Shown here one piece after another: positions 1-61,617 of a stretch of DNA of 64,000 nt. Every line of letters starts with the position of its first letter. Positions within the stretch are counted from its first letter, which is position 1. This DNA is from Streptomyces showdoensis. GTDB taxonomy: Bacteria; Actinomycetota; Actinomycetes; Streptomycetales; Streptomycetaceae. The translations under genes were made by a program, and so were the position numbers. The notes under the pieces were generated by a model that searched no databases, was not told the DNA's origin, and saw nothing but the letters and a program-made list of their open reading frames with translations. The DNA is taken from positions 13,501 through 77,500 of the forward strand of contig NZ_BAAAXG010000027.1 of the NCBI RefSeq assembly GCF_039535475.1, read 5' to 3'.

Positions 1-3000
1 GGCGGCTTCCCCGAGATCGCCGTCGACAAGAACGCCAGTCTCAGCGGCGGGGTCTACTTCACCGTCGGCCTGCCCACCCCCGTCGGCGTCTTCGTCTTCA
101 ACCCCGGCGCCAACGTGTCCACCGGCATCAGCCGGGCCGAGACCGGGCTGCGCGACGTCAACGGCGACGGCCTCGCCGACCACGTCAGGTCGACCCGCGA
201 CGACGAGCTCCTCGTCGCCGCCAACAAGACCGGGCGCACCAACCTCCTCCGCACGGTGTCCCGCCCGATGGGTGCGCGGATCGACCTGGACTACACCCGC
301 ACAGGCAACACAGCCGAGATGCAGGAGAGCCGGTGGGTCCTGTCCCGCACCGCGGTGTTCGACGGGCTCGCGGGTGACGGCGCCGACACGCGCCTGACCA
401 CCTTCCGCTACGAGCAGGGCCGTTACGACCGGCTGGAGCGCGAGTTCCTCGGCTTCGGCCGCGTGGTGACCGAGGACCGCGACCCCGGGGCGGGCGACGC
501 CGTCCGCCGCACGGTGACCGAGGAGTACCGCACCGACGGATACGCGGGCCGCGGCCTGCTCACCCGCTCGCTGACCGAGGACGGCGCCGGCCACCCGTAC
601 CGCGAGACCCTGAACACGTACCGGCTGCTCGACACCGACACGGACGGGGAGGCCGACCCGAAGAGCCGGACCGCCACCGTCTTCCCGCAGCTCGTCCGTA
701 TCGAGGAGAGACACTTCGAAGGTGGGGCCGGCGGGGGGAAGTCCACCTTCACCGAGCTCTCCTACGACGCCTACGGCAACGTCGTCCGCACCTTCGACGC
801 GGGCGACGAGGGCACTGCGGACGACGTGGAGACCGTCTACGCCTACACCGGCTCGGACCCGCGGTGCCGTGACCGGCACCTCGTCGGCATCGCCGACGCG
901 ATCCGGCAGAAGGCCGCGGCCGGCGGCGCGCTGCTGCGCCACCGCGAGTCCACCGTGGACTGCGCGACCGGTGCCGTGCGCCAGTCGCGCGAGTACCTCG
1001 ACGACGACACGGCGGCCGTCTCCGACCTCGCGTACCACCCGGACGGGAACCTGAAGTCGGTGACCGGCCCGGCCAACGCCCGCGGGCAGCGCTACACGCT
1101 GGAGTACGGCTACGACACGACCGTCGGCGTCCACATCGAGTCCGTCGAGGACAGCTTCGGCTACCGCTCTACCACGGCGTACAACCTCAAGTACGGCCTG
1201 CCGGAGCGGAACACCGACCAGAACGGGCAGCCGCTCCGGATGGCCTACGACAGCGTGGGTCGGCTCGAGCGGGTGACAGGGCCCTACGAGAAGGACGGCG
1301 ACCGGGCCACGATTACCTTCGGCTACCACCCCGAGGCGACCGTCCCGTACGCCACGACCCAGCACCTCGACCGCGCCGCCTCGGGAGTGCGCGACGACAC
1401 CATCGACACCGTCACCTTCAGCGACGGCCTCAAGCGCGTCCTGCAGACCAAGAAGGACGCCTCGGTGTCCGCCTCGCCGGGGGCCGCCCCCGCGCAGGTC
1501 ATGACGGTCTCGGGCCGGCTCAGGTTCGACCACCTGGGCCGTGCCGTGGAGAAGTACTACCCGGTGACCGAGCCGAAGGGGGCAGCGAACACCGCGTTCA
1601 ACGCCTCCTTCGATTCCGTGGCGCCCACCAAGGACACCTTCGACGTCCTGGACCGGTCGGTCAGGACCGTGCAACCGGACGGCGTCGCCACCAGCACCCG
1701 CTACGGCTTCGGCGGGGATCGGGCGGGCACGCCCCGCTTCGAGCGCACGGTGACCGACGGCAACGGCAAGGAGCGCCGCACCTACACCGACGTCCGGGGT
1801 GCGGTCACCGCGGTGAAGGAATTCAGCGGCTCCTCGGAGATCTGGACCAGCTACGCGTACGACCCCACGGGCCAGGTCACGACGATCACCGACGACAAGA
1901 ACAACGTCACCCGCGCCGGCTACGACGGGCTGGGGCGCCGCGTCTCCTTCGAGAGCCCGGACGCCGGGCGCTCCGAGACCCGCTACGACCTCGCCGGGAA
2001 CGTCACGTCGAAGACCACCGCGAACCTGCGGGCCGTGGGCGGGGCCGTCGAGTACGACTACGAGTACTCGCGGCTCAAGGCCGTCCGCTACCCGACGTTC
2101 CCGGCGAACGACGTCTCCTACGTGTACGGGGCCCCCGGCGCTCCGCACAACGCTGCCTCGCGCATCACCGAGGTCCACGACGCGGCGGGAACGGTGAAGC
2201 GCGCCTACGGGGCGCTGGGCGAGGTGGTCGAGGAGACCCGCACGATCACCGCGGTCCGCGACGCCCCCCGCACCTACACCACGGCGTGGCGCTACGACGC
2301 CTTCAACCGCGTGCTGGAGATGACCTATCCCGACGGCGAGGTCCTCACCTACGACTACGACTCGGGCGGCCAGGTCGCCCGGGCCACCGGGTCCAAGAAC
2401 GGCACCGGCTATACCTACCTGGACCGGCTCGACTACGACAAGTTCGGCCAGAAGATCCTCCAGCAGACCGGCAACGGGGTGCGCACCACCTACACCTACG
2501 ACGCGGAGGACCGCCGGCTCGCGGCGCTGAGGTCCGTGGCGCCGGGCGGGACCGCTTTCCAGAACCTGGGCTACACGTACGACAGGATCGGCAACGTCAC
2601 CTCGCTGGTGAACGACGCGCCGCGGGGCGGGGACATCGGCGGCCCGAGCACCCAGACCTACGGGTACGACGACCAGTACCGGCTCACCTCCGCGTCCGGC
2701 CGGTACACGGACAAGAACGACGCGGTCAACACGTACACCCTGAGCCTGGCCTACGACTCGCTCCACAACACCACGAGCAAGACGCAGACCCACGAGGTCA
2801 CCGGCGGCACCCCGGCCTTCCCGGCCGGAGGCGGTGGGGCCGGGCCGATCGAACCCGTCGAGGACCCGTCCAACACGGGCGACGTCCAGGACCGGACCAC
2901 CTACGCCTACGCGTACACCTACGACGGCGCCCGACCGCATGCCCCGAGCAAGGTCGGTCCGGTCACCCATGCCTACGACGCCAACGGCAACCTGACCGGC

Positions 3001-4779
3001 ACGGTCAACACGGCCGGCGCCGGCAAGCGTCGGCAGTACGTGTGGGACGAGGAGAACCGCCTGGTCTGCACCCAGGACACGGCGACCGGCACCCTCGCGC
3101 AGGACCCGAGCGGCTGCGCCGGCGCCACCGTCTCCTACGTCTACGACGACAAGGGCGACCGCCTCGTCAAGCGGAGCGAGGAGGGGCTCTCCCTCTACCC
3201 GAACCGCTACTACAGCGAGCGCGACACCACCGGCTACAAGCACGTCTTCGTCGGCGACGGACGCGTAGCCACCAAGGCCGTCGAGACCACCGGCCCCGAG
3301 GAGGCCCAGCAGTTCTTCCACGCCGACCACATCGGCTCCTCCGGCTACGTAACCGACCAGCGGGGCGTGGTCACCGAGCACCTGGAGTACTTCCCGTACG
3401 GGGAGACCTGGGTGGAGGAGCGGACCGGACAGGCGGACACGCCCTACCAGTTCACCGGCAAGGAGCTCGACGCCGAGACCGGGCTGTACTACTACGGAGC
3501 CCGCTACTACAACCCGCGGACCCAGCTGTGGGCGAGCACCGACCCGGCGCTGCCCGACTACCTCGACGGCGACATGGCGGGCGGCATCGCCGAGCCGCGC
3601 AACCTCGCCGCCTACACGTACGCCCACGGCAACCCGGTCAAGCTGGCCGACCCGACCGGCAAGTGGCCGAAGATGCCGTCCTGGAAGACGATCGGCCACA
3701 CGACGCTCGACGTCGTCGGCATGGTGCCGGTCGTCGGCGAGGCGGCGGACCTGGCGAACGCCGGCTGGTACGCCGTCGAGGGCGACTACGTCAACGCGGG
3801 CCTCTCGGCGGCCTCAGCGATCCCCGGCGCGGGATACGCGGCGAACGCGGCCAAGTACAGCAACAAGGCGATCGACATGGCCCAGGCGGCCAAGACCGCC
3901 AACAACGCGGCCGACGCGTCGAAGACGGCCAAGGCGGCCGACACCCCGCCCGTGCCGAAGGCGGCGGACAGCCCTCCCGCCCCGAAACCGGCCGACAGCG
4001 GGGCGGGGGGCTGCGGCACCGGCAACAGCTTCACCCCGGACACCGAGGTCGTGATGGCCGACGGCACCCGGAAACCGATAGCCCAGGTGCGCGTCGGCGA
4101 CGAGGTCACCGCGACCGACCCGGTGACCGGGGAGAGCGGACCGCGCACGGTCACGGCGCTCATTACCGGTGAGGGCGAGAAGCACCTGGTGGAGATCACC
4201 GTCACCCACCCCGACGGCGCCCCGGGCAAGGTCGTCGCGACGGCCGGCCACCCCTTCTGGGCGCCCGAACTGGGCAAGTGGGTCTACGCCAAGGAGATCC
4301 TCCCCGGGACCCTGCTGCGGACCGGCAACGGCTCCTCCACCCAGGTGACCGCCGTCCGCGCGTGGACCCAGCAGAAGCGGGTCCACAACCTCACGGTGGA
4401 GGATCTGCATACGTACTATGTGCGGGCGGGCGAGGCTTCGGTACTCGTTCACAATGCAACGCCTGGTCAGAAGTGCGATCTGACGCTCGGGGCCGGTCCG
4501 CACGCCCGAGAGGGTGTAGCCCTGGAGAACGGTGACATCGAGGCGCCTGGCGTGCGAGAAATGATCAACGAATCAGGGAACGCGCACGGCTGCCACACGT
4601 GCGGCACCAAAGTGCCTGGTACCAAGGCTGGTGATTGGATTCCCGATCACCAGCCACCGACCAGTCTCATCGATCTCGGAACTCCTCAGACGGCTTATCC
4701 GCACTGCCTGGAATGTGCCAGGATTCAGGGCGGGGTCGTTTCGCAACTGTCACAAGGAAAGAGCAACAAGGGATGGTAG
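1..4779 (+). CDS. SpvB/RHS-repeat polymorphic toxin with Hint domain, 5' end outside window
   Basis: The frame is open from the first base, so the gene is truncated only by the window edge; about 1592 residues are visible. The start resembles the SpvB/TcdB region, with an FG-GAP-like DVNGDGLADHV. Dozens of YD repeats follow (for example YDAFNRVLEMTYPDGEVLTYDYDS is split over one repeat), then the RHS core around nt 3440-3545 (FTGKELDAETGLYYYGARYY, then NP..W.S.DP). An Ala-rich pretoxin segment leads to a Hint domain at about nt 4012-4455, from Cys in GCGTGNSF to the closing VHN. The last ~107 residues are a separate tip with HGCHTCG, PDHQPP and PHCLEC, a zinc-binding nuclease-like pattern. 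By analogy, the RHS shell encloses the tip and Hint/autoproteolysis releases it into a competitor. The tip has lower GC than the shell, as expected of exchanged cassettes. The tip's exact toxin class is not established. Confidence 0.9.
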   Translation, partial: GGFPEIAVDKNASLSGGVYFTVGLPTPVGVFVFNPGANVSTGISRAETGLRDVNGDGLADHVRSTRDDELLVAANKTGRTNLLRTVSRPMGARIDLDYTRTGNTAEMQESRWVLSRTAVFDGLAGDGADTRLTTFRYEQGRYDRLEREFLGFGRVVTEDRDPGAGDAVRRTVTEEYRTDGYAGRGLLTRSLTEDGAGHPYRETLNTYRLLDTDTDGEADPKSRTATVFPQLVRIEERHFEGGAGGGKSTFTELSYDAYGNVVRTFDAGDEGTADDVETVYAYTGSDPRCRDRHLVGIADAIRQKAAAGGALLRHRESTVDCATGAVRQSREYLDDDTAAVSDLAYHPDGNLKSVTGPANARGQRYTLEYGYDTTVGVHIESVEDSFGYRSTTAYNLKYGLPERNTDQNGQPLRMAYDSVGRLERVTGPYEKDGDRATITFGYHPEATVPYATTQHLDRAASGVRDDTIDTVTFSDGLKRVLQTKKDASVSASPGAAPAQVMTVSGRLRFDHLGRAVEKYYPVTEPKGAANTAFNASFDSVAPTKDTFDVLDRSVRTVQPDGVATSTRYGFGGDRAGTPRFERTVTDGNGKERRTYTDVRGAVTAVKEFSGSSEIWTSYAYDPTGQVTTITDDKNNVTRAGYDGLGRRVSFESPDAGRSETRYDLAGNVTSKTTANLRAVGGAVEYDYEYSRLKAVRYPTFPANDVSYVYGAPGAPHNAASRITEVHDAAGTVKRAYGALGEVVEETRTITAVRDAPRTYTTAWRYDAFNRVLEMTYPDGEVLTYDYDSGGQVARATGSKNGTGYTYLDRLDYDKFGQKILQQTGNGVRTTYTYDAEDRRLAALRSVAPGGTAFQNLGYTYDRIGNVTSLVNDAPRGGDIGGPSTQTYGYDDQYRLTSASGRYTDKNDAVNTYTLSLAYDSLHNTTSKTQTHEVTGGTPAFPAGGGGAGPIEPVEDPSNTGDVQDRTTYAYAYTYDGARPHAPSKVGPVTHAYDANGNLTGTVNTAGAGKRRQYVWDEENRLVCTQDTATGTLAQDPSGCAGATVSYVYDDKGDRLVKRSEEGLSLYPNRYYSERDTTGYKHVFVGDGRVATKAVETTGPEEAQQFFHADHIGSSGYVTDQRGVVTEHLEYFPYGETWVEERTGQADTPYQFTGKELDAETGLYYYGARYYNPRTQLWASTDPALPDYLDGDMAGGIAEPRNLAAYTYAHGNPVKLADPTGKWPKMPSWKTIGHTTLDVVGMVPVVGEAADLANAGWYAVEGDYVNAGLSAASAIPGAGYAANAAKYSNKAIDMAQAAKTANNAADASKTAKAADTPPVPKAADSPPAPKPADSGAGGCGTGNSFTPDTEVVMADGTRKPIAQVRVGDEVTATDPVTGESGPRTVTALITGEGEKHLVEITVTHPDGAPGKVVATAGHPFWAPELGKWVYAKEILPGTLLRTGNGSSTQVTAVRAWTQQKRVHNLTVEDLHTYYVRAGEASVLVHNATPGQKCDLTLGAGPHAREGVALENGDIEAPGVREMINESGNAHGCHTCGTKVPGTKAGDWIPDHQPPTSLIDLGTPQTAYPHCLECARIQGGVVSQLSQGKSNKGW

Positions 4780-13153: not shown

Positions 13154-13933
13154 GTGAACGACGGTGGCCAGAGGCGTTACGGCCCGCTCGGCAAGGCCTT
13201 GGTGATCATTCCGACCTACAACGAGGCGGAGAACATCAAGCCGATCGTCGCGCGGGTGCGGGAGTCCGTACCCGAGGCGCACGTCCTCGTCGCCGACGAC
13301 AACAGCCCCGACGGCACGGGCAAGTTCGCCGACGAGATCGCCTCCGAGGACGATCACGTCCACGTCCTGCACCGCAAGGGCAAGGAGGGGCTCGGCGCGG
13401 CCTACCTCGCGGGCTTCCGCTGGGGCATCGAGCACGGCTACGACGTCCTCGTCGAGATGGACGCCGACGGCTCCCACCAGCCCGAGGAGCTGCCCCGGCT
13501 GCTCACCGCCCTCAAGGGCGCGGACCTGGTGCTCGGCTCCCGCTGGGTGCCCGGCGGCCGGATCGTGAACTGGCCGAAGTCCCGCGAGTTCATCTCCCGC
13601 GGCGGCAGCCTCTACTCGCGCGTCATGCTCGACGTGCCGATCCGCGACGTCACCGGCGGCTACCGGGCCTTCCGCAAGGAGACCCTGGAGGGCCTCGGCC
13701 TCGACGACGTCGCCTCGGCCGGCTACTGCTTCCAGGTCGACCTGGCCCGCCGCGCGGTCGCCGCCGGCTTCCACGTCGTGGAGGTCCCCATCACCTTCGT
13801 CGAGCGCGAGGTCGGCGACTCCAAGATGAGCCGGAACATCGTCGTCGAGGCGCTGTGGCGGGTCACCGGCTGGGGTCTGAGCGCCCGCGCGCAGAAGGTC
13901 GGCAAGCTGCTCGGCCGCGGCTCCGCGAGCTGA
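13154..13933 (+). CDS. ppm1: Polyprenol-phosphate mannosyltransferase
   Basis: A 259-residue GT2-fold enzyme of the dolichol-phosphate-mannose synthase type. It would move mannose from GDP-mannose to polyprenol phosphate on the inner membrane face, providing the donor for protein O-mannosylation and lipoglycans. The nucleotide-binding start is VIIPTYNEAENI, VADDNSPDGT follows, and the metal-binding DAD is in VEMDADGSHQPEEL. There are no membrane spans, so it is the catalytic domain alone, as is typical for Streptomyces rather than the fused mycobacterial form. GTG start at 13154. The next gene on the strand is an FxsA-family membrane protein after 47 nt. Confidence 0.9.
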   Translation: MNDGGQRRYGPLGKALVIIPTYNEAENIKPIVARVRESVPEAHVLVADDNSPDGTGKFADEIASEDDHVHVLHRKGKEGLGAAYLAGFRWGIEHGYDVLVEMDADGSHQPEELPRLLTALKGADLVLGSRWVPGGRIVNWPKSREFISRGGSLYSRVMLDVPIRDVTGGYRAFRKETLEGLGLDDVASAGYCFQVDLARRAVAAGFHVVEVPITFVEREVGDSKMSRNIVVEALWRVTGWGLSARAQKVGKLLGRGSAS

Positions 13934-37062: not shown

Positions 37063-37213
37063 GCGGCCGGGCCGGGCGGGGCCGGGACGGGCGAGAGGCG
37101 CGGCCGGGACGGGTGGCGGGCAGGTGCCGGGCGGCGGCGGCCGGCGGCGGTCGGCGGCGGTCGTATAAGCGCCGTTTCGACCGTTGTCAGTTCGAGGACC
37201 TACTCTGTGCACC

Positions 37214-38741
37214 GTGACTTCGCCTGCCTCGACGGACCTCGCTCCGCCCCAGCTCAGCGCGGGGCCGCGCCCCGCGCAGGGCCCGGCCGCCGACGAAGGG
37301 CTCGCGCGGCGGCTCCGCGCGCTCGCGTGCACCGCCCCGCTGCACGACCTGGACGTGCGCAAGGCGAACCTGGCCGGCGAGTACTCGGTCTACGCGATGG
37401 CCGAGGTCGCCCTCGCCGCGATCGACCTGGTCACGCTCAACATGGACTTCGACACCGGCGCCGACCACGAGCAGGTGGTCGCCCGGCTGCTGCCCCGCGT
37501 CGCCGCCCAGGCCGCCGAGCGCCCCGCCGCCGAGCACGAGCGGGTGGCCCGCTGGGTCCTCGAGAACCTGATCAACGTCGGCAGCGTCGACCGCGGCTTC
37601 CGCGCCGTCTACGGCACCTTCGGCGCCGACGGCGTCTACACCCGCCGCGACTACGACTTCAAGCTCATCGAAGAGGTCCCCGGCTACGGCGGCGGAGTCT
37701 GCCTGCGCACCACCGACGAGGCCGTCAACGTGCTCGTCGGCGCCCTCGACACCGACGTCACCAGCGCCCAGATCGCCGCCGAGGTGAAGCTGGAGGTCCT
37801 CATCAGCCGGGGCCGCCTCGCCGACGCCCAGCTCGCCGCCGAACAGGCCCGCTACCGCACCGTGCAGTACGCGGAGACCCTCCGCAGGACCCTGGAGGCC
37901 ACCCGGCGCAACGTCCGCGCGGTCGACTGGCTCAACGCCGTGCCCGACATGATCGCCGAAGCGCTCGACCACGTGGCCGACCGCTACCGCCACGAGAACG
38001 CGATCCTCACCAACATCCGCAAGGCCCGCGACGAGGCCGAGGACCAGGAGCACAAGCGCCGCGCCGCCGAGCTCGTCGACATCGTCAAGGACTGCATCCG
38101 GCGCCACACCCAGCTCCAGTCCCGGCTCCTGGAGGCCGGCCCGCTCTTCCGCGCCGAGCAGGACCGCCAGGCCTTCGCCGCCCCCACCGCCTACACCGGC
38201 CTCGACCTGTACGGGCAGCTGGTCGCCCCGCTCCTCCCGCTCCCCGTCGAGCAGGCCACCCGGGTCACCGACGCCTTCTTCGCGCACGGCACCGGACTGC
38301 GCACCCCCGCCTCCGTCCGCGTCGCCGACCTCGTCGAGCTGCTCCTCACCCCGCCCGTGGAGCGCCAGCACCTGGGCGCGGAGATGCCCGAGCCGGACCT
38401 CATCGCCACCCCCGACGACAGCCGCTTCAGCGAGGAGCAGCTGGCCGCCGCCATGGAGCTCCTCGACCTGGAGCACGACGCCCCGCGCCGCCTCTCCGGC
38501 CTGCTCGCCGACGCCCGGCGCCAGGACGCCGACCTTCCCTACCTGGTCGCCCTCCTCGCCGTCCACGCCGCGAGCCCCCCGGTCGGCACCGCCTACCGCC
38601 AGGGCGAGGAGCGCCTGCTGTTCGCCGTCGACGACGGCACCCCCCCTCGACGACCCCGAGTTCGGCGGCGCCGACCTCATCGTCGGCACGGCCCTCCTCG
38701 ACGCCGTCGGCATGGCCGCGGACCGCACGGAGGCCACGTGA
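37214..38741 (+). CDS. MukF/JetA-like kleisin candidate, one frameshift near the 3' end
   Basis: About 508 residues if one extra C in the run 38640-38646 is removed. The read frame then ends EFGG...GMAADRTEAT and its TGA overlaps the next GTG. Uncorrected, the frame runs on into the next gene. The N-terminus is helical (YSVYAMAEVALAAIDLVTLN). A winged-helix-like segment follows (GVYTRRDYDFKLIEEVPGY, CLRTTDEAVNVLVGAL), then a long coiled-coil (AQLAAEQARYRTVQYAETLR) and a C-terminal globular part. This order matches MukF/MksF/JetA kleisins, and position ahead of a KITE-like and an SMC-like gene supports that. GTG chosen; TTG at 37184 is an alternative. No clear ribosome binding site. Confidence 0.65.
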
Positions 38742-39283
38742 CCGCGCCCCAGCCGCCCGAGGACCCGGGGACCACCGGGGCCCCGGGCACCGAAGGCTCC
38801 GGCCAGGCCACCCCGGCCCCCGCCGCGGGCACCACCGCTCCGGCCCCCGTCACCGGTGCCGCCGAAGGCGCCGCCCCGGCCCCCGCCGCCGACCGCGCCC
38901 CCGGCCCCCGCGTGGCCGCCGTGCCGCTCGCCCGGCCCGGCGCCGACCGGCCCCTCGGCGACGTCCCCACGGACGGCCCCCGGGTGCGCCCCGTGCCCGC
39001 CCGGACGGCCCCCGAGCCCGTCCGCCGCCCCTTCGTGCGCGCCGTACCCCTGCCGCGCAAGCGCCGGCCGGACGACGCGCCCGCGGGCGGAGCCGCCCCC
39101 GGGACGCCGGCCGCCCCCGCGCCCGTCGCCGTCACGCCCGTACGCCTGCCCCTGCCCGAACCCGCCCCGGCGGCGGAGCCGGAGCGGACCCCGCAGGCCC
39201 CGGCGGCCCCGGCCGTCGCCCCCGTCCCGCCCGGGCACCCCGCCCCTTCGCACCCCCGCCGTACCGAGGAGCCCCAGCCGTGA
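38738..39283 (+). CDS. Pro/Ala-rich protein between kleisin-like and KITE-like genes
   Basis: A 181-residue protein from GTG (GTGA overlap with the corrected kleisin-like stop). It is almost entirely Pro, Ala, Gly, Thr and Arg with no ordered domain; its only distinctive part is two basic stretches (FVRAVPLPRKRRPDD). It ends by overlapping the KITE-like start. Low complexity makes function unreadable; a flexible linker or DNA-binding tail for the complex is a guess. Because frame 2 runs from the kleisin-like gene into it through the single-C shift, a fusion protein is possible if the frameshift is genuine. Confidence 0.55.
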   Translation: MTAPQPPEDPGTTGAPGTEGSGQATPAPAAGTTAPAPVTGAAEGAAPAPAADRAPGPRVAAVPLARPGADRPLGDVPTDGPRVRPVPARTAPEPVRRPFVRAVPLPRKRRPDDAPAGGAAPGTPAAPAPVAVTPVRLPLPEPAPAAEPERTPQAPAAPAVAPVPPGHPAPSHPRRTEEPQP

Positions 39284-40176
39284 GCGAACACCACGTCGAG
39301 CACACCGACGCGTGGAGCGAGCCGGAGGCCCCGCAGACCGCCGCCGCGCCCTCGGCCGTCACCCCGGCGGACGCCGCCGACGCGGCCCGGCTCGTCTCCT
39401 TCGGGCTCCAGCCCAAGCTGCTGCCCGCGCGCGACGCCGAGTACGCCGAGCTGCTGCGCCGCTACCGCGAGGACCCCGCCTTCGCGCGGCTCGCCGACGC
39501 CGTCGCCACCGGCCTCGGCCTCGTCGTCCTGGAGGTCTCCCCGCGCGCCGGCATGGCCGTCACCGCGGGCGAGGACTCCGTCTTCGCCGTCCGCATGGGC
39601 GACTACGCCCGCCGCGCCTCCACCGACTCCGCCGACCGCTTCCTGCACGGCCTCGCGCACCTCGCCGTCGCCACGATGGCCTTCCCCCGCCCCGAGGACC
39701 TCGCCGACGACGGCTACATCGGCCGCCTCACCGTCAACGGCGTCGACGCCTTCGTGCGCCAGGCCTGCCGCCGCCTCGAGGAGCGCGCCGAGGAGCAGGG
39801 CGAGAACACCGACCCCGCCTCCGACGCCCCCGGCCTGGAGGCCGCCTGGCGGATCTACGCCCGGCGCAGCGCCACCGGCGCCACCAAGGACGCCCGCCGC
39901 CTCGCCGGCTCCACCACCGGCATCGTCGGCAAGGCCGTCGCCTTCCTCACCGACTCCGGCTTCCTCCAGCGGACCGGCGACGAGTCCGGCGGCTCCTACC
40001 GCACCACCGCCCGCTACCAGCTCCAGGTCCGCGACATGGCCGGAAGCGCCGCCATGGCCGAACTCCTCGACCTCGGCGTCGTCCCCGTCAGCGACGGCTC
40101 CGCGACCCTCCTGCCGCCGCCCGAGGGCGACGACCTGGAGCTCGCCGCCGACGCCGGCCTGCCCTTCCACGGCTGA
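39280..40176 (+). CDS. MukE/JetB-like KITE candidate
   Basis: A 298-residue acidic protein from a GTG in GTGA overlap. Winged-helix-like units are visible. The first has FLHGLAHLAVATMAFPRPED, with a wing near GYIGRLTVN. The second has IVGKAVAFLTDSGFL and the hairpin GDESGGSYRTTARYQLQVRD, typical of the second wing of KITE proteins. MukE/MksE/JetB are usually 200-250 residues, so this one is slightly long, with an Ala/Pro-rich N-terminal tail. Order before the SMC-like gene matches MukE before MukB. Family membership is inferred from architecture, not alignment. Confidence 0.6.
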   Translation: MSEHHVEHTDAWSEPEAPQTAAAPSAVTPADAADAARLVSFGLQPKLLPARDAEYAELLRRYREDPAFARLADAVATGLGLVVLEVSPRAGMAVTAGEDSVFAVRMGDYARRASTDSADRFLHGLAHLAVATMAFPRPEDLADDGYIGRLTVNGVDAFVRQACRRLEERAEEQGENTDPASDAPGLEAAWRIYARRSATGATKDARRLAGSTTGIVGKAVAFLTDSGFLQRTGDESGGSYRTTARYQLQVRDMAGSAAMAELLDLGVVPVSDGSATLLPPPEGDDLELAADAGLPFHG

Positions 40177-40232
40177 CCGCCGCCCGCACGTCACCGCCCA
40201 TCCCGCGTACGAGAAGCACGAGAGTCCGCCGC

Positions 40233-43200
40233 ATGTACGAGCTGTCCCGGGTCCGCCTCTACTCCATCGGACCGGCCGGTGCCCGCTACGCCGACACCGT
40301 CCTGGACCTGCGCGGAGTCGGTGCGCCGGTGCCCCACCCCGCCCCCACCCAGGCGGAGTTCTTCGAGGAGGAGCCGGTCGGCCCGCCGCGCCGCCCCGCC
40401 CCCGCGGGCGTGCTCTTCCTGGAGAACGGCGGCGGCAAGTCCGTCCTCCTCAAGCTGATCTTCTCGGTCATGCTCCCCGGCCACCGCAACACCCTCGGCG
40501 GCGCGAGCTCCGGCGTGCTGCGCAAGTTCCTCCTCGCGGACGACTGCGGGCACGTCGCCCTGGAGTGGCAGCACACCCTCACCGGCGAGCTGGTCGTCGT
40601 CGGCAAGGCCAGCGAGTGGCGCGGCCGCCAGGTCTCCAACGACCCGCGCAAGTTCGCCGAGGCCTGGTACTCCTTCCGGCCCGGCCCCGGGCTCAGCCTC
40701 GACAACCTCCCCGTCGCCGAGGCCACCTCCGTGCGCCCGCCCGTCGAGGGTGCCTCCGGCGCCTCCGGCCGCCGCCGCACCATGAAGGGCTTCCGCGACG
40801 CGATCACCGAGGCGGGCAAGGCCTACCCGCACCTGGAGGTCTACTGGGAGGAGATCCACGACCGCTGGAACGAGCACCTCGGCGACCTCGGACTCGACCC
40901 CGAACTCTTCCGCTACCAGCGGGAGATGAACGCCGACGAGGGCGAGGCCGCCGGCCTCTTCGCGGTCAAGAAGGACTCCGACTTCACCGACCTGCTGCTC
41001 CGGGCCGTCACCGACACCCGCGACACCGACGGTCTCGCCGACCTCGTCGGCGGCTTCGGCAACAAGCTCGGCCGCCGCGCCGAACTCACCGCCGAGCGCG
41101 ACTTCACCGCCGGCTCCGTCGACCTGCTCACCCGCATCGTCGAGGCCGCCGACACCCGCGCCCGCGCGCGCGACGTGCACGCCGGGGCCGAGCGCCGCAC
41201 CCGCACCCTGGCCCGCCGGCTCTCCGCCCGCGCCGCCCTGGAGCGCGGCCGGGTCGCCGAGCTCGCCCAGCAGGTCACCTCCGCCGCCCACGCCGTCTCC
41301 GAGGCCGAGGAGGCCCGCGGCCGCAGCGCCCTCATCGCCGCCGAACTCGCCTACCGGCACGCCTCGCTGGCCCTGACCGCCGCCGAGAAGGGCGCCGCCG
41401 CCCAGCGCCGCGAGCTCACCGACGCCCGCACCCTGCACTCCGCCTGGCAGGCCGCCGAGTCCGTGCTCCGGCACCGCGCCGCGAGCGACCGCTCCACCCG
41501 GGTCGCCGCCGCCATCCGCGAGGCCGAGCGCGACGCCGCCCCGGCGCTCGCCGCCCGCGCCAAGGCCGCCGCCGATCTCGTCCGCGCCCTCGCCTCGGCC
41601 GCCGAGGAGGGCGAGCGGCAGGCCGCCGAGGAGGAGGAGCGCTCGGCCGCCCTCCAGGAGGCCGGCGAGACCGCCCACCGCGACGCCACCGCCGCCGCCA
41701 CCGAGGCCCAGCGCGCCCGCAGCGAGGCCGGACACCTGCGCCAGCGCCTCGCCGAGGTCGAGCAGGAGACCGCCGAGGCGGTCCGGGCCGGCTGGCTCGA
41801 CGACTCCGCCCCCGACGCCGACCCGGCCCGCGCCGCCCTCGCGGCGAGCGACGCCGAGAAGACCACGGTCGCCGCCTGGGACGTGGCCCGGGACGCCGCC
41901 CGCGCCGCCGCAGAGCGGGCCCGCGAGACCGCCGCCGCCGAGTCCCGCGCCGAACTCGCCGCCGCCCGCGCCTCCGACGCGGCCGAGGCCGCCGAGAACG
42001 CCTACGACGCGGAGCGCCGCGCCGCCGAGTCCCTCGCCGCCGACCCCCGCCTCGCCGAACTGCTCTCCCTGCCGAGCACGGGCCAGGGCTCCGGGCAGGG
42101 CACCGGCTCCCCGCTGCCCGGCCAGCGCGCGGGCGACGGCCCCGGCCCCGACGCGAGCGCCCCCGGCGCCGCCTTCGGCCTCGGCGCGGCGCCCGACGGC
42201 GACGGGCTCACCGTCACCGACTTCGACCGGTACGCCGACGAACTGCGCGCCCTGCTCGACCGGTCCATCGCCTCGGCCGAGCGCCAGCTCTTCGACCTGC
42301 GCACGGCCGCCGCCGACGACAACCGCATCCTCGGCGCCCTCGGCGACGGCGGACTGCTGCCGCCCGGCCCCGACGTCCTCGCCACCGTCGAGTACCTCGG
42401 CGAGCACGGCATCCCCGCCCTGCCCGGCTGGCGCTACCTCGCCCAGGCCGTCGACCCGGCCGACCACGCCGCCGTCCTCGCCGCCCGCCCCGAGCTGGTC
42501 GACGGCGTCGTGATCACCGACCCCGTCTCGTACGGCCGCGCCCGCGAGGTGCTGAGCGGCGCCGCCCTGCTGCCCCGCTCCACGGTCGCGGTCGGCACCG
42601 CCGCCGCCCTGCTCGCGCCCGTGCCGGCGCCCGCGTCCGGCCAGGACGCCGACGTCTTCCTCGTACCGCCGAACCCGGCCATGCACGACGAGCACGCCGC
42701 CGACGAGGAGCGCCAGGCGCTGCGCGGCCGCGCCACCGCCCGCGACGAGGAGATCCGCTCGCTGGCCGCCCGGCTCACCGGCGACCGCTCCCTGGCCGCC
42801 CGGATCGGCTCCTGGCGCGCCGACTGCCCGCCCGGCATGCTCGCCGAGCTGGCCGCCGTCGCCGCCTCCGCCGGCACCGCCGCCGAGACCGCGGCCGCCG
42901 CCCTGGCCGAGGCCCGTGCGGTACGGGCGGAGGCCGACGAGGCCGCCGCCGACGCCGCCCGGGTCCGCGACGAGCGCCAGGAGGCCGCCCAGCGCGCCCG
43001 CCGTGCCGCCGACGCGCTCGCCGGCCTCGCCTACCGGCTGCGCGAGCGCTCCGCCTGGCAGGCCAAGCTGCGCGAACTCGCGGACGACGCGGCCGAGTCC
43101 GAGGCCCGCGCCCAGACCTGTCTGGAGCGCGCCCGCGCCGCCGACGAGGACCGCCGCGCCGCCCAGCGCACCGCCGACGACGCCCACCGCACCGCCCGCG

Positions 43201-44993
43201 CCCTGCGGGCCGAGCGCGCCGAGATCGCCGGCGCCCCCGAGACCCTGCCGGAGGAGGACACCGCCGCGCCGCGCGCCGCGCTCCCCACCCTCCGCGAGGC
43301 GTACCGGGCCGCCTCCCAGGTGTACGAGAAGGTCGGCGTCGGCGCCGACCTGCGCGCCGAACAGGCCCGCGCCGAGAGCGACGAGTCCGCCGCCCTCGCC
43401 GAGCTCGACCGCCTCACCAACAAGGTCCGCACCCGCGCCGAGCAGCTGCTGGAGTCGACCGACGGCGCCGACGGACCGTCCCGCCAGGCCGCCGCCGCCC
43501 GCGCCGAGGCACTGGTGCAGAAGCTGGAGTCGCGCGCCTCCGAGGCCAGCGAGAAGCTGGGCCGGCTCCGCGGCGAGTCCGAGCGCCTCGCCCCCGAGGA
43601 CGGCGAGGCGCACACCGAGCTGCCCGAGGAGCTGATCCCGGCCGACGCGGAGCGGGCACAGGGCCTGCTGCGCACCGCCACCACCGAACTCGCGGCCCGC
43701 ACCGACGCCCTGGAGGCGGCCCGCGCCGCCCACACCGGTCTGCTCCAGGCCCACCGGTCGGCCGAGGACGCCACCGGCGGCTTCGACGAGACCGCGGCGC
43801 TCCTGCGCGACCTGCTGCGCGACCACGCGGAGGAGGAGCAGGAGGAGCCCGAGCCGTACCCGGGCCCGCTGGCCGAGGCCCGCGAGTCGGCGGCGGAGGC
43901 CCGCCGTTCGCTGCGCGGCTGCGCCGCCGACCTGTCGGCCGCCGACGCGGCCGTCCGCGAGGCCGGCGACATCCTCGTCCGGCACGCCAACGCGACCCGT
44001 TACGAGCAGGTCCGCACCCCGGCCCGGCAGCAGATCCGCGAACTGCCCGCCGCCGCGCTGCCGGAGCACGCCGCGAAGTGGGCCGAGGCGTTCGCGCCCC
44101 GGCTGCGGGTGCTGACCGACGAGCTGGAGCAGCTGGAGCGCAACCGCGACTCGATCGTGGACCGGCTGCGCGGTCTCGTCGAGTCCTCGCTGGCCACCCT
44201 GCGTTCGGCCCAGCGGCTGTCCCGGCTGCCCGAGGGGCTGGGCGAGTGGTCCGGGCAGGAGTTCCTGCGGATCCGCTTCGAGGAGCCGGACCAGGCGACG
44301 CTCACCGAGCGCCTCGGCGAGGTCGTCGACGAGGCGACCCGGGCCGCCGTGCGGAAGAACTCGGACCTGCGCAGGGACGGCATGTCCCTGCTGCTGCGCG
44401 GAGTCCAGGCCGCCCTGGAGCCCAAGGGCATCGCCGTGGAGATCCTCAAGCCGGACGCGGTGCTGCGCGCCGAGCGCGTCCCGGTCGGCCAGATGGGAGA
44501 CGTCTTCTCCGGCGGCCAGCTGCTCACCGCCGCCATCGCGCTCTACTGCACGATGGCCGCGCTCCGCTCCAACGACCGGGGCCGCGACAAGCACCGCCAC
44601 GCGGGCACGCTCTTCCTGGACAACCCGATCGGCCGCGCGAACGCCACGTACCTGCTGGAGCTCCAGCGGGCCGTGTCGGACGCGCTGGGCGTGCAGCTGC
44701 TGTACACCACGGGCCTCTTCGACACGACCGCGCTCGCCGAGTTCCCGCTGGTCATCCGGCTGCGCAACGACGCGGACCTGCGCGCGGGCCTGAAATACAT
44801 CAGCGTGGAGGAGCACCTGCGGCCCGGCCTGCCGCAGCCGAGCGCGGAGGGCGAGACCATCCACGGCGAGATCACCGCGACCCGGATGTTCCGCCGCTCG
44901 CCGGAGGCCCGTACGTCGGACGCCCGCTCGCCGGAGGCCCGTACCTCGGAGGCCCGCTCGTCGGAGGCTTCCGCGGCCACCGCGGCGGAGTAG
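40233..44993 (+). CDS. Giant SMC/MukB/JetC-like coiled-coil ATPase
   Basis: A 1586-residue ATPase. The N-terminal head has Walker A FLENGGGKSVLL (Lys69). Two long Ala/Glu/Arg-rich coiled-coil arms (about 270-640 and 830-1320) flank a globular hinge-like part (about 650-830). The C-terminal head has the ABC signature VFSGGQLLTAAIALY (residues 1425-1429 for FSGGQ) and Walker B TLFLDNPIGRAN (Asp1463), then a D-loop-like region. Such proteins pump DNA loops with a kleisin and KITE subunit. Note the DN in place of DE in Walker B, which may lower hydrolysis or be characteristic of the subfamily. ATG at 40233; last gene of the operon, followed by a terminator. No JetD-like gene follows. Confidence 0.8.
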   Translation: MYELSRVRLYSIGPAGARYADTVLDLRGVGAPVPHPAPTQAEFFEEEPVGPPRRPAPAGVLFLENGGGKSVLLKLIFSVMLPGHRNTLGGASSGVLRKFLLADDCGHVALEWQHTLTGELVVVGKASEWRGRQVSNDPRKFAEAWYSFRPGPGLSLDNLPVAEATSVRPPVEGASGASGRRRTMKGFRDAITEAGKAYPHLEVYWEEIHDRWNEHLGDLGLDPELFRYQREMNADEGEAAGLFAVKKDSDFTDLLLRAVTDTRDTDGLADLVGGFGNKLGRRAELTAERDFTAGSVDLLTRIVEAADTRARARDVHAGAERRTRTLARRLSARAALERGRVAELAQQVTSAAHAVSEAEEARGRSALIAAELAYRHASLALTAAEKGAAAQRRELTDARTLHSAWQAAESVLRHRAASDRSTRVAAAIREAERDAAPALAARAKAAADLVRALASAAEEGERQAAEEEERSAALQEAGETAHRDATAAATEAQRARSEAGHLRQRLAEVEQETAEAVRAGWLDDSAPDADPARAALAASDAEKTTVAAWDVARDAARAAAERARETAAAESRAELAAARASDAAEAAENAYDAERRAAESLAADPRLAELLSLPSTGQGSGQGTGSPLPGQRAGDGPGPDASAPGAAFGLGAAPDGDGLTVTDFDRYADELRALLDRSIASAERQLFDLRTAAADDNRILGALGDGGLLPPGPDVLATVEYLGEHGIPALPGWRYLAQAVDPADHAAVLAARPELVDGVVITDPVSYGRAREVLSGAALLPRSTVAVGTAAALLAPVPAPASGQDADVFLVPPNPAMHDEHAADEERQALRGRATARDEEIRSLAARLTGDRSLAARIGSWRADCPPGMLAELAAVAASAGTAAETAAAALAEARAVRAEADEAAADAARVRDERQEAAQRARRAADALAGLAYRLRERSAWQAKLRELADDAAESEARAQTCLERARAADEDRRAAQRTADDAHRTARALRAERAEIAGAPETLPEEDTAAPRAALPTLREAYRAASQVYEKVGVGADLRAEQARAESDESAALAELDRLTNKVRTRAEQLLESTDGADGPSRQAAAARAEALVQKLESRASEASEKLGRLRGESERLAPEDGEAHTELPEELIPADAERAQGLLRTATTELAARTDALEAARAAHTGLLQAHRSAEDATGGFDETAALLRDLLRDHAEEEQEEPEPYPGPLAEARESAAEARRSLRGCAADLSAADAAVREAGDILVRHANATRYEQVRTPARQQIRELPAAALPEHAAKWAEAFAPRLRVLTDELEQLERNRDSIVDRLRGLVESSLATLRSAQRLSRLPEGLGEWSGQEFLRIRFEEPDQATLTERLGEVVDEATRAAVRKNSDLRRDGMSLLLRGVQAALEPKGIAVEILKPDAVLRAERVPVGQMGDVFSGGQLLTAAIALYCTMAALRSNDRGRDKHRHAGTLFLDNPIGRANATYLLELQRAVSDALGVQLLYTTGLFDTTALAEFPLVIRLRNDADLRAGLKYISVEEHLRPGLPQPSAEGETIHGEITATRMFRRSPEARTSDARSPEARTSEARSSEASAATAAE

Positions 44994-45009: not shown

Positions 45010-45045
45010 GAGTGGCCCGGGCCCCCGAAGGGGACCGGGCCACTC
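45010..45045. terminator. Terminator after the SMC-like gene
   Basis: 11-bp outer stem (GAGTGGCCCGG with its complement) with an inner CCCC/GGGG pair, 16 nt after the stop. It also ends the convergent small membrane gene. Confidence 0.8.
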
Positions 45046-59423: not shown

Positions 59424-60704
59424 GTGAACCGCACGACCTGGCACCGCGCCGCACTCGACCGCATACCGGGAGGCCGCGACGGCCGCCGGATGCTCCTGGT
59501 CAGCATCATCGACAAGACCGGCACCGGCCTCTGGGCGGGCTGCACCGCGCTCTACCTCACCTACGTCTCCGGCCTCGGCCTCGGCCAGGTGGGTCTCCTC
59601 ATGACCGTCTCCGGCGGCGTCGGCATCGCCGGCGCCCCCCTCGCCGGCCGCCTGGCCGACCGCTTCCCCCTCGTCCGCGTCATCGTCGGCGCCCAGCTCA
59701 TGCGCGGCGCGGCCCTCCTGGCCCTCCTCACCACCGACCACTTCCTCCTCCTCACCCTCTACTCCGCCCTCGGCGCCCTCCCCGACCGCGCCGGCAGCGT
59801 CCTCATCAAGCTCTACGCGGCCCGCATCGCCGGCCCCGACCGCGTCCGCTACCAGGCCATCCAGCGCACCACCGTCAACATCGGCTGGTCCATCGGCGGA
59901 CTCGGCGCCGCCGCCGCGCTCGCCACCGGCAGCACCCGGGCCTACGGCCTCCTCCTCGTCGGCAACGTCCTCTCCTACCTGGTCATCGCCGTCCTCACCC
60001 TGCGCTGCGACGAGCCCCCGGCGCCCTCCCGCACCGTCGCCACCTCGGCCGACACCCCGAAGGGCCGGCCCGCCGGCCCCTGGCGCGACCGCACCTTCCT
60101 GGCCTACACGGCCACCGAAGCCGCCCTCTTCCTCGACGACACGATCCTCCAGGTCGCCGTCCCGCTCTGGATCGTCCACGCCACCGCCGCCCCCGCCGGA
60201 CTCGCCCCGCTGCTCCTGGTCCTCAACACCGTCCTCGTCGTCCTCTTCCAGGTACCCCTCTCCCGCTTCGCCGCGACCACGACGGCGGCCCGCCGCCTCC
60301 TCGTCCCCCTGTCCGGACTCTTCGTCGTCGGCACCCTCGCCCTCGCCGCCTCCGCCGCCGACGGACGGACCCTCGCCATCACCGCCCTGGCCGTGGCGGT
60401 CATCGCCCTCACCTTCGCCGAGATCATCCACGCGACGGCCTCCTGGGAGCTCTCTCTCGCCCTCGCCCCCGCCGAGGCCCAGGGCGCCTACCTCGGCGTC
60501 CACGGCCTCGCCCAGTCCACCCAGCGCTGCGCCGGACCCCTGCTGGTCACCGGCGTCATGACGGCGGGCCCCCTCGCCTGGCCCCTCCTCGGCCTGGCCC
60601 TGGTCGCGGCCGGCGCGGCCCAGCACCGCGTGATCCGCGACCGCGTGACCGCCCCCGCCCCGCCGTCACTGTCAGTGCCCGCGGTTACGGTGAGTGAGCA
60701 CTGA
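59424..60704 (+). CDS. MFS transporter
   Basis: A 426-residue transporter with about twelve spans. The first span is near VSIIDKTGTGLWAGCTALYL, and the loop GRLADRFPLVRVI follows the second. GTG at 59424 after AAGGGGGA. It is likely a drug or metabolite exporter, controlled by the divergent MocR regulator. The gap to the next gene is 22 nt, so co-transcription with the unknown protein is possible. Confidence 0.88.
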   Translation: MNRTTWHRAALDRIPGGRDGRRMLLVSIIDKTGTGLWAGCTALYLTYVSGLGLGQVGLLMTVSGGVGIAGAPLAGRLADRFPLVRVIVGAQLMRGAALLALLTTDHFLLLTLYSALGALPDRAGSVLIKLYAARIAGPDRVRYQAIQRTTVNIGWSIGGLGAAAALATGSTRAYGLLLVGNVLSYLVIAVLTLRCDEPPAPSRTVATSADTPKGRPAGPWRDRTFLAYTATEAALFLDDTILQVAVPLWIVHATAAPAGLAPLLLVLNTVLVVLFQVPLSRFAATTTAARRLLVPLSGLFVVGTLALAASAADGRTLAITALAVAVIALTFAEIIHATASWELSLALAPAEAQGAYLGVHGLAQSTQRCAGPLLVTGVMTAGPLAWPLLGLALVAAGAAQHRVIRDRVTAPAPPSLSVPAVTVSEH

Positions 60705-60726
60705 TCGACTGAGCCCAGGGGGAGCC

Positions 60727-61617
60727 ATGACCGACCACCGCACCACCGAGACCCTGCGCCGCGCCCTGCGCCGCGACGTCCCCAGCACCGTCGCCCTCCT
60801 CGCCGACGAGGAGGACTTCACCGCCATGCGGCAGTACGGGACCTTCGCCTTCGACGACCACACCCGCTACCTCGCCCACGTCGAGGAGCTCCTGCGCACC
60901 CTCGCCGCCGAAGGCGGCCACACCACCCTCGCCCTCTTCGACCCCGAGGAGTTCGCCGACTACTGCGCCGACACCGGCCTCGACCCCGACCACCCCACCA
61001 GCCGCAGCCGCTACACCGCCGAACGCGCCGCGACCGGCGCCCGCCTCACCTACACGGGCCAATCGCTCGCCACCCTCGTCCCCCTCCTCGTCGACACCGC
61101 CGTCCGCCGGGCCACCTGGGAGTACGCGACGATGCTCCTCACCGACGCCGGCACCTGCGCCGACTGCGGCAAGGACATCGGCCAGGCCGCCTTCGAGCGT
61201 GCTTCCCGCCTCCTGGTCCGCCTCCTCGACACGGCAGGACCCGGCACCCACCACCTCGTCTGCAGCGTCCCCGCCGGAGACGAACAGCTCCTCGCCGTCC
61301 TCCACACCACCCGCGACACCACCGGCCCCGCCCGCCTCGACAGCTCGGCGGGCGCCGAGTTCGTGACCGTCCTCGCGACCGGCATCGCCCTCGGCACCCC
61401 CGGCGGAGTCGTCCTGCGCACCCACACCCCCGACGCCCCCGCCCGCCTCCACGGCTGGCGCCTCCACCAGGGCCGTCTCCGCCCCCTCACCGAGGCCGAG
61501 GTCTTCGACGCCTACTGCACCGACGCCCGCACGGGCGAACCCATCTCCCCGGAACCCGACGTCGACTACCGCGCCGGATTCCCCCTCACCGCCGACGACG
61601 ACACCCACCCCCACTGA
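60727..61617 (+). CDS. Conserved hypothetical protein
   Basis: A 296-residue soluble protein. It has an N-terminal helical segment (VPSTVALLADEEDFTAMRQY), a CADCGKDIG pair in the middle, and a C-terminal acidic tail. I recognise no domain. ATG at 60727 after GGGGGAG; an upstream in-frame start adds 11 residues of MFS tail region and is not preferred. It follows the MFS gene closely and ends at the hairpin ahead of ptsI, so it may belong to the transporter's operon. Confidence 0.7.
   Translation: MTDHRTTETLRRALRRDVPSTVALLADEEDFTAMRQYGTFAFDDHTRYLAHVEELLRTLAAEGGHTTLALFDPEEFADYCADTGLDPDHPTSRSRYTAERAATGARLTYTGQSLATLVPLLVDTAVRRATWEYATMLLTDAGTCADCGKDIGQAAFERASRLLVRLLDTAGPGTHHLVCSVPAGDEQLLAVLHTTRDTTGPARLDSSAGAEFVTVLATGIALGTPGGVVLRTHTPDAPARLHGWRLHQGRLRPLTEAEVFDAYCTDARTGEPISPEPDVDYRAGFPLTADDDTHPH

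Follow-up and report, generated by a model that had tools for sequence, protein, structure and literature searches.

What does an SMC complex of the plasmid-defence type do in a chromosome where no nuclease gene accompanies it? The question is raised by an operon in a window of 64,000 nucleotides from Streptomyces showdoensis (the whole stretch analysed here, positions 13,501 to 77,500 of contig NZ_BAAAXG010000027.1, in a genome of 8.5 Mb in 29 contigs). A sequence-only reading had described there a MukFEB- or Wadjet-like operon lacking jetD, the gene for the Toprim nuclease with which Wadjet cleaves small circular plasmids, and had left three options for it: a chromosome-structuring complex, a plasmid sensor using a distant nuclease, or a separate class. 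We propose, with a confidence only a little above even, that the operon descends from a type III Wadjet which, once deprived of its nuclease, came to serve the chromosome as an SMC complex inducible by DNA damage. Its identity as a JetABC-type complex is solid, whereas its function is something that we infer.

Identity of the operon and the JetD nuclease

Four consecutive genes, as had been claimed, occupy positions 37214-44993 of the window on the plus strand. The first, a jetA-like kleisin gene (37214..38741, with a GTG start at 37214 and a natural stop at 38741), matches the JetA3 model of PADLOC at E 2.8e-175, and the fourth, a jetC-like SMC ATPase gene (40233-44993), matches the JetC3 model PDLC00588 at E 0 and 1407.5 bits, which places the ATPase with JetC and not with an unrelated coiled-coil family; both are models of type III Wadjet. 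The nearest named JetA, from a Streptomyces, is 94% identical. JetC has exactly the 1586 residues given in the sequence-only reading and all three of the motifs named there: Walker A (ENGGGKS, 40422..40442), the ABC signature (FSGGQ, 44505..44519) and Walker B (LFLDNPIG, 44610..44633), all on the plus strand. These motifs are unchanged in 67, 62 and 62, respectively, of 71 Streptomycetaceae loci; the remaining 4, 9 and 9 loci do not hold that part of jetC, and the motifs are identical wherever it is held. Walker B has DN, not DE, and we dropped the idea that this marks a dead ATPase because three type III JetC proteins from JetD-bearing operons have DN as well, without variation. In this assembly the reading frame of jetA apparently shifts shortly before the 3' end of the gene, which leaves the last ~30 residues out of frame; this end is intact in all 37 relatives read, so the likely cause is an error of sequencing or a mutation of recent date.

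The third gene (39280-40176, plus strand) encodes a jetB-like KITE protein with a tandem winged helix. It gave nothing above any cut-off in Pfam, NCBIfam or PADLOC, whose JetB models also miss three JetB proteins from quartets, that is, from operons with jetA, jetB, jetC and jetD. It is homologous to the JetB of such quartets and lies between A and C, and all of the Foldseek ranks 1-11 for its predicted model (m94453919ffb1) are MukE-MukF, MukBEF or JetABC entries. For the first gene we used the fold of an intact orthologue (locus L017), which combines a MukF-like winged helix, a helical middle and a C-terminal winged helix; MukF-containing entries fill the first two rows of Foldseek and the first eight of VIA-align 2, and one chain of the Escherichia coli Wadjet JetABC, of 498 residues and taken by us to be JetA, aligns with the fold end to end. 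Thus the first and third proteins do show kleisin and KITE similarity and, together with the JetA3 and JetC3 matches, they support the claim of an extra MukFEB/JetABC-like SMC complex, in a genome that also encodes ScpA. Sequence searches of the PDB with JetC, JetA and JetB profiles returned unrelated weak rows or none, and Pfam and NCBIfam matches of the operon proteins to LemA, LytR_C and flagellar families were dropped as sub-threshold.

No JetD gene was found beside the operon, in line with the earlier reading, and a scan of the genome for a JetD-like gene found none at the thresholds used. The JetD_C model PF09983, which was positive in the controls Bacillus subtilis and Corynebacterium glutamicum, had no match in this genome at E<=10, the JetD3 model PDLC00594 had none at E<=1e-3, and PF09664 (DUF2399) gave a single sub-threshold match (E 0.5). 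A distant nuclease therefore looks less likely. Likewise, JetD was found beside none of 80 loci of orphan-form relatives (the best 80 of 463; 14 Frankiaceae and 66 Streptomycetaceae), of which 63 reach the end of jetC and 61 hold at least 3 kb beyond it, and the same search detected JetD in all three JetD-bearing controls. Elsewhere a JetD3 gene directly follows jetC (loci L021, L023 and L025), and 17 of the 18 quartet loci read hold A, B, C and D. In the exception (L181:10100-11424, genome G505), all that was recognised in the piece fetched is a JetD3 gene and the final 99 residues of a JetC, with neither JetA nor JetB, so that JetD is left alone. Two distant actinobacterial loci (L022 and L024) have JetA, JetB and a recognisable part of JetC with no JetD match; L024 stops at the contig end, and the rest of the L022 JetC is unrecognised.

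Descent and distribution

Among 295 Streptomyces genomes, JetA is found in 289, in 288 of them with E<1e-150, and in 286 of the 288 good assemblies; one genome (G409) has a match of merely E 7.9e-52 and so perhaps only a divergent copy. Identity of JetA among Streptomyces is 84-95% in the matches listed. The pattern extends over the Streptomycetaceae, with JetA in 246 of 249 genomes, in 240 of the 241 good assemblies and in all 17 genera, one of them through a weak match alone (G590, E 8.6e-17). Beyond the family, the gene is sparse: a sample of the phylum gave JetA matches in 13 of 296 genomes (nine Streptomyces and four scattered others), and a sample of the class gave JetC3 matches in 25 of 197 (16 Streptomyces, 8 Frankiaceae and one marginal at E 6.9e-4), with at least one Frankiaceae genome (G814) having no JetC3 match. 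No JetA relative of at least 60% identity occurs among 72,556 plasmid records, which hold four weaker, divergent matches; the nearest, at 54%, lies on a Rhodococcus linear plasmid and is followed by an annotated JetD gene. No match was found in 50,697 phage records.

Strong JetD3 matches (E below 1e-40) occur in 23 of the 295 Streptomyces genomes, two or more JetA matches in 25, and both together in 21 (a hand count), while the JetD3 matches of 16 further genomes are weak and partial (E 6.5e-10 to 8e-4). Of 16 strong-JetD3 loci fetched, 15 are separate, divergent and complete quartets; in one genome (G193) the quartet lies 0.3 Mb from the core orphan copy, so that the defence form and what may be its tamed form sometimes share a genome.

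Phylogenetic reconstruction places the orphans within this diversity. In the JetA tree the orphan copies of Streptomycetaceae and Frankiaceae group together among JetD-bearing copies (support 90/90, midpoint root), and the combined JetA and JetB tree nests the same clade among JetD-bearing copies (94/94, midpoint root). The option of a separate class thereby becomes that of a clade without nuclease that sits within type III Wadjet. One loss of JetD appears to be the simplest reading of these trees. Two losses are possible, because in the tree of JetB the Streptomycetaceae form has one JetD-bearing group next to it, on weak support (85/63). The median ratio of nonsynonymous to synonymous substitution rates (dN/dS), taken for each gene over the first 22 orthologues of sufficient length, is 0.17 for jetA, 0.25 for jetB and 0.31 for jetC, with maxima of 0.48, 0.59 and 0.62.

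In 16 fetched contigs of more than 6.9 Mb, the gene lies 8-20% from the contig end in 14, and at 0.5% and 38% in the others. Wadjet has been reported as enriched toward the ends of Streptomyces chromosomes (PMC10482375), and the words JetA and JetD are absent from the main text of that report. Around the operon, a PADLOC scan of ten other window open reading frames (ORFs) gave a single match (mad8, E 1.9e-9), which agrees with the earlier placement of the operon in the core chromosome rather than in a defence island. A small minus-strand ORF accompanies 58, and a conservon kinase 54, of the 71 Streptomycetaceae loci, some of which are truncated. Both are absent beside 15 Frankiaceae loci and were rejected as partners; indeed, none of eight window neighbours tested recurs there.

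The promoter motif and the role of the complex

Directly before jetA, at 37184..37206 on the plus strand, lies a match with one mismatch to the pattern TTGTCRGTG-N8-TANNNT, which we take to be the RecA-NDp consensus (Gamulin et al. 2004). RecA-NDp is the DNA-damage promoter motif of PafBC (PMC8223512), and it precedes recA and the UV-inducible SCO6735 in S. coelicolor (PMC5087735). The jetA transcript is probably leaderless, because the GTG start follows 7 bases after the motif. An alignment of 72 Streptomycetaceae upstream regions, the window included, shows a conserved block that runs to the start codon and a second conserved block, GCCGTTT..GACCG (37169..37183, plus strand), directly 5' of the motif. 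The best sites in the 71 Streptomycetaceae loci have no mismatch in 30 cases, one in 30, two in 7, three in 3 and five in 1, whereas shuffled regions never fell below three mismatches and gave 0 of 71 within one. When both strands of these loci were scanned (2,757,566 bases), all 60 sites with at most one mismatch lay upstream of jetA, and the first in-frame start after TANNNT came 7 bases on in 52 of the 60, 8 bases on in 2 and at once in 6. This link of the orphan operon to the promoter motif, present in 60 of 71 Streptomycetaceae copies, is a new result of the present analysis.

With the ninth base left free, the pattern has 22 sites in this genome, against none for a reversed control; the ORF behind each site was chosen by script and named by Pfam and NCBIfam. 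Eleven of the 21 sites not belonging to jetA precede recA, ruvC, dnaE, dnaX and genes for a DNA polymerase beta clamp, a UvrD-like helicase, a uracil-DNA glycosylase, an AlkZ-like glycosylase, MGMT, a RecD2-type HHH-domain protein and a macrodomain protein. The other ten precede genes for a sigma factor, TerD, an MFS transporter, a hydrolase and WGR, DUF1877 and DUF4132 proteins; the remaining three of these genes have no match. The window itself holds a second RecA-NDp-like site with at most one mismatch (60669-60691, plus strand), inside the end of an MFS ORF (59424-60704) and before the ORF at 60694-61617. From its promoter, the operon is apparently switched on by DNA damage.

We therefore favour a course of events in which JetABC, a complex of kleisin, KITE protein and SMC ATPase, would descend from a type III Wadjet whose JetD nuclease was lost. 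The orphan complex would then have become fixed in Streptomycetaceae as a vertically inherited housekeeping complex, with a sister form in Frankiaceae, and the Streptomycetaceae copy would be turned on through a LexA-independent DNA-damage promoter of the RecA-NDp/PafBC type. Loop extrusion has been proposed or shown for MukBEF and Wadjet (PMC10586767, PMC12647877). By analogy, JetC dimers with JetA and JetB may extrude DNA loops on the host chromosome, driven by ATP in the manner of MukBEF; the machine could act there because, without JetD, completed extrusion has no cutting outcome. Damage-driven expression would imply a job at broken or stalled chromosomes, namely to hold, compact or segregate them during or after damage, beside the normal Smc-ScpAB. 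The option of a chromosome-structuring complex gains from near-universal, tree-like conservation and from the damage promoter motif, on which the sequence-only reading had been silent, and the whole suggests a defence system turned into a machine for chromosome care.

Several observations weigh against this proposal. No fold match is strong when taken singly, with no Foldseek E below 1e-3, so that the kleisin and KITE folds are clear by consistency and not by a single strong score. The support for the two-family orphan clade is unstarred in both trees, the JetB tree alone does not show the clade, and dN/dS of jetC reaches 0.62 in some pairs. The motif, at one mismatch or less, also precedes 6 of 17 JetD-bearing copies (L021, L176-L178, L186 and L189, two of them near-identical), and for this reason the motif alone does not separate repair from defence; those operons are possibly a plasmid defence inducible by damage or by single-stranded DNA. 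Frankiaceae are without the motif, their best sites having two mismatches in 1 of 15 loci, three in 1 and four or five in 13. Finally, although Streptomyces encode PafBC homologues, an initial search was reported to suggest that S. venezuelae has not conserved the PafBC motif of Mycobacterium smegmatis, and no SMC-type gene appears among the selected genes tabulated in the same paper (PMC9380542).

The best placed of the rivals, though in our judgement an unlikely one, is that JetABC still serves against foreign DNA, recognising incoming circular DNA or DNA derived from single strands, and silencing, compacting or excluding it with no cutting, under a PafBC trigger that senses single-stranded DNA. 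Its nearest relatives are indeed Wadjet quartets, the promoter is shared with the JetD-bearing copies just named, and single-stranded DNA activates the mycobacterial PafBC (PMC11804915); conjugation or phage entry may also provide such DNA. No effector was found, however, the ten ORFs scanned show no sign of a defence island, and no core-like copy turned up among the plasmid or phage records. Defence genes are usually patchy, whereas this operon is near-universal and tree-like in its presence.

Less probable again is a general second condensin that serves sporulation or ordinary segregation with no special tie to damage. Streptomycetaceae and Frankiaceae, the two families with the orphan form, are both filamentous and spore-forming, the latter keep the operon without the motif, and MukBEF and MksBEF are known nuclease-free cousins; in Streptomycetaceae, however, the strongest regulatory signal is the damage-type promoter motif. 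We give slightly less credence still to a Wadjet working with a nuclease encoded elsewhere, either one with no relation to JetD or a JetD that belongs to another copy. Such a partnership would suit a complete JetABC with intact ATPase motifs and the 23 Streptomyces genomes with a strong JetD3 elsewhere, but the genome of S. showdoensis has no JetD at the thresholds given above, JetD sits with its own divergent JetABC in all but one of the quartet loci, and the neighbours do not recur in Frankiaceae. A decaying remnant without function, to which the frameshift in the window jetA might point, is very improbable: the ATPase motifs are identical, every pair has a dN/dS below 1, the operon is nearly fixed in the family, and the relatives read do not have that frameshift.

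If the nuclease-stripped, damage-inducible complex is what the operon encodes, the consequences reach beyond this species. Streptomyces is a main model for linear-chromosome folding and sporulation, and a second SMC motor in nearly every species would change how phenotypes of smc deletions are read. It would also be an example from nature of the route, proposed in PMC10586767, by which a defence against plasmids turns to the care of chromosomes, and the damage-type promoter makes the role directly testable. In the available text of the literature searched (on Streptomyces Wadjet, MksB, condensin and PafBC, including PMC10123090, PMC7022226, PMC6789036 and PMC9122601; subscription papers and preprints lay outside), no universal JetD-less JetABC of Streptomyces is described; papers on the Streptomyces chromosome (PMC13121528, PMC8410768 and PMC12511625) treat SMC as the condensin, and no second complex was met in their available parts. 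The fuller claim, of a family-wide second chromosomal SMC complex, inducible by damage, drawn from a nuclease-stripped type III Wadjet, a counterpart of Smc5/6 in role and not met in the literature searched, we advance more tentatively, at somewhat less than an even chance.

Other features of the locus and known systems

Between jetA and jetB lies ORF2 (38738-39283, plus strand), rich in proline and alanine, which shares 4-base overlaps with the jetA stop and the jetB start and has no match above cut-off in Pfam or NCBIfam. The Pro-rich second gene of the sequence-only reading is thus present, but it is not a conserved gene. In a survey of 68 Streptomycetaceae loci (three more were set aside), 39 have an ORF2 that opens with a start codon and shares both overlaps, at lengths from 12 to 331 residues; 9 have the same open frame with CTG at the start, 10 start jetB directly on the jetA stop, and 10 have other arrangements. 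Its place as a conserved fourth subunit was dropped because it is intact in only these 39 loci and very variable in length. A jetB start on the jetA stop is the rule in JetD quartets (15 of 17) and in Frankiaceae (14 of 15 loci); in the 39 loci, a start codon on the jetA stop opens ORF2 instead, which ends on a new jetB start. Over 48 open frames the composition is 20% proline and 19% alanine, the end of ORF2 contains, in the commonest cases, a ribosome-binding site for jetB that resembles GAGGAG or AAGGAG, and the frame linkage from jetA through ORF2 to jetB is kept despite very different lengths. ORF2 is likely a former N-terminal extension of JetB that was cut loose and kept for translational coupling. 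Long versions show, by eye, repeated short motifs of the form P-x-V-R-x-V-x-L/P, which are possible binding motifs.

At the other end of the operon, the C-terminal tail of JetC is encoded by a 15/30-base tandem repeat (44894-44968), and its length may therefore differ between strains; a GC-rich, terminator-like hairpin, read by eye and unscored, follows jetC at 45012..45043 on the plus strand. Far upstream, at 115-4779, the window encodes a large protein in which Pfam recognises RHS repeats, a TcdB-midN domain and, at the C-terminus, a pretoxin HINT domain, and which has the look of a polymorphic RHS protein.

Among known systems, type III Wadjet is the closest: its JetA3 and JetC3 models match, the order A-B-C is the same, relatives of all three genes occur in real quartets, and Walker B has DN. 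The operon differs from it in that no JetD was found, in being near-universal in its family and not patchy, and in the ORF2 that separates jetA from jetB in most Streptomycetaceae loci; its JetC is also ~100 residues longer than that of the quartet at L021. MukBEF, the condensin of E. coli, shares the kleisin and KITE folds, the gene order (F-E-B) and the lack of a nuclease, whereas no sequence relative emerged when the PDB, with its entries for MukBEF and type I JetABC, was searched with profiles, and the complex here coexists with ScpA. MksBEF of Pseudomonas aeruginosa, likewise a nuclease-free kleisin-KITE-SMC complex, is reported to have likely arisen from JetABCD by loss of JetD and to contribute to chromosome organisation (PMC10586767). 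Compared by description, it differs from the present operon, which belongs to the type III branch by the PADLOC models and has a damage promoter motif. To the RecA-NDp/PafBC regulon the operon is tied by that motif and by the genes behind it in this genome, and it stands apart in being an SMC complex, none of which was met as a member of the regulon in the available text of the literature searched. Smc5/6 and RecN, the SMC proteins of DNA repair, are families different from JetABC, and they would be its analogues in role if the damage reading holds.

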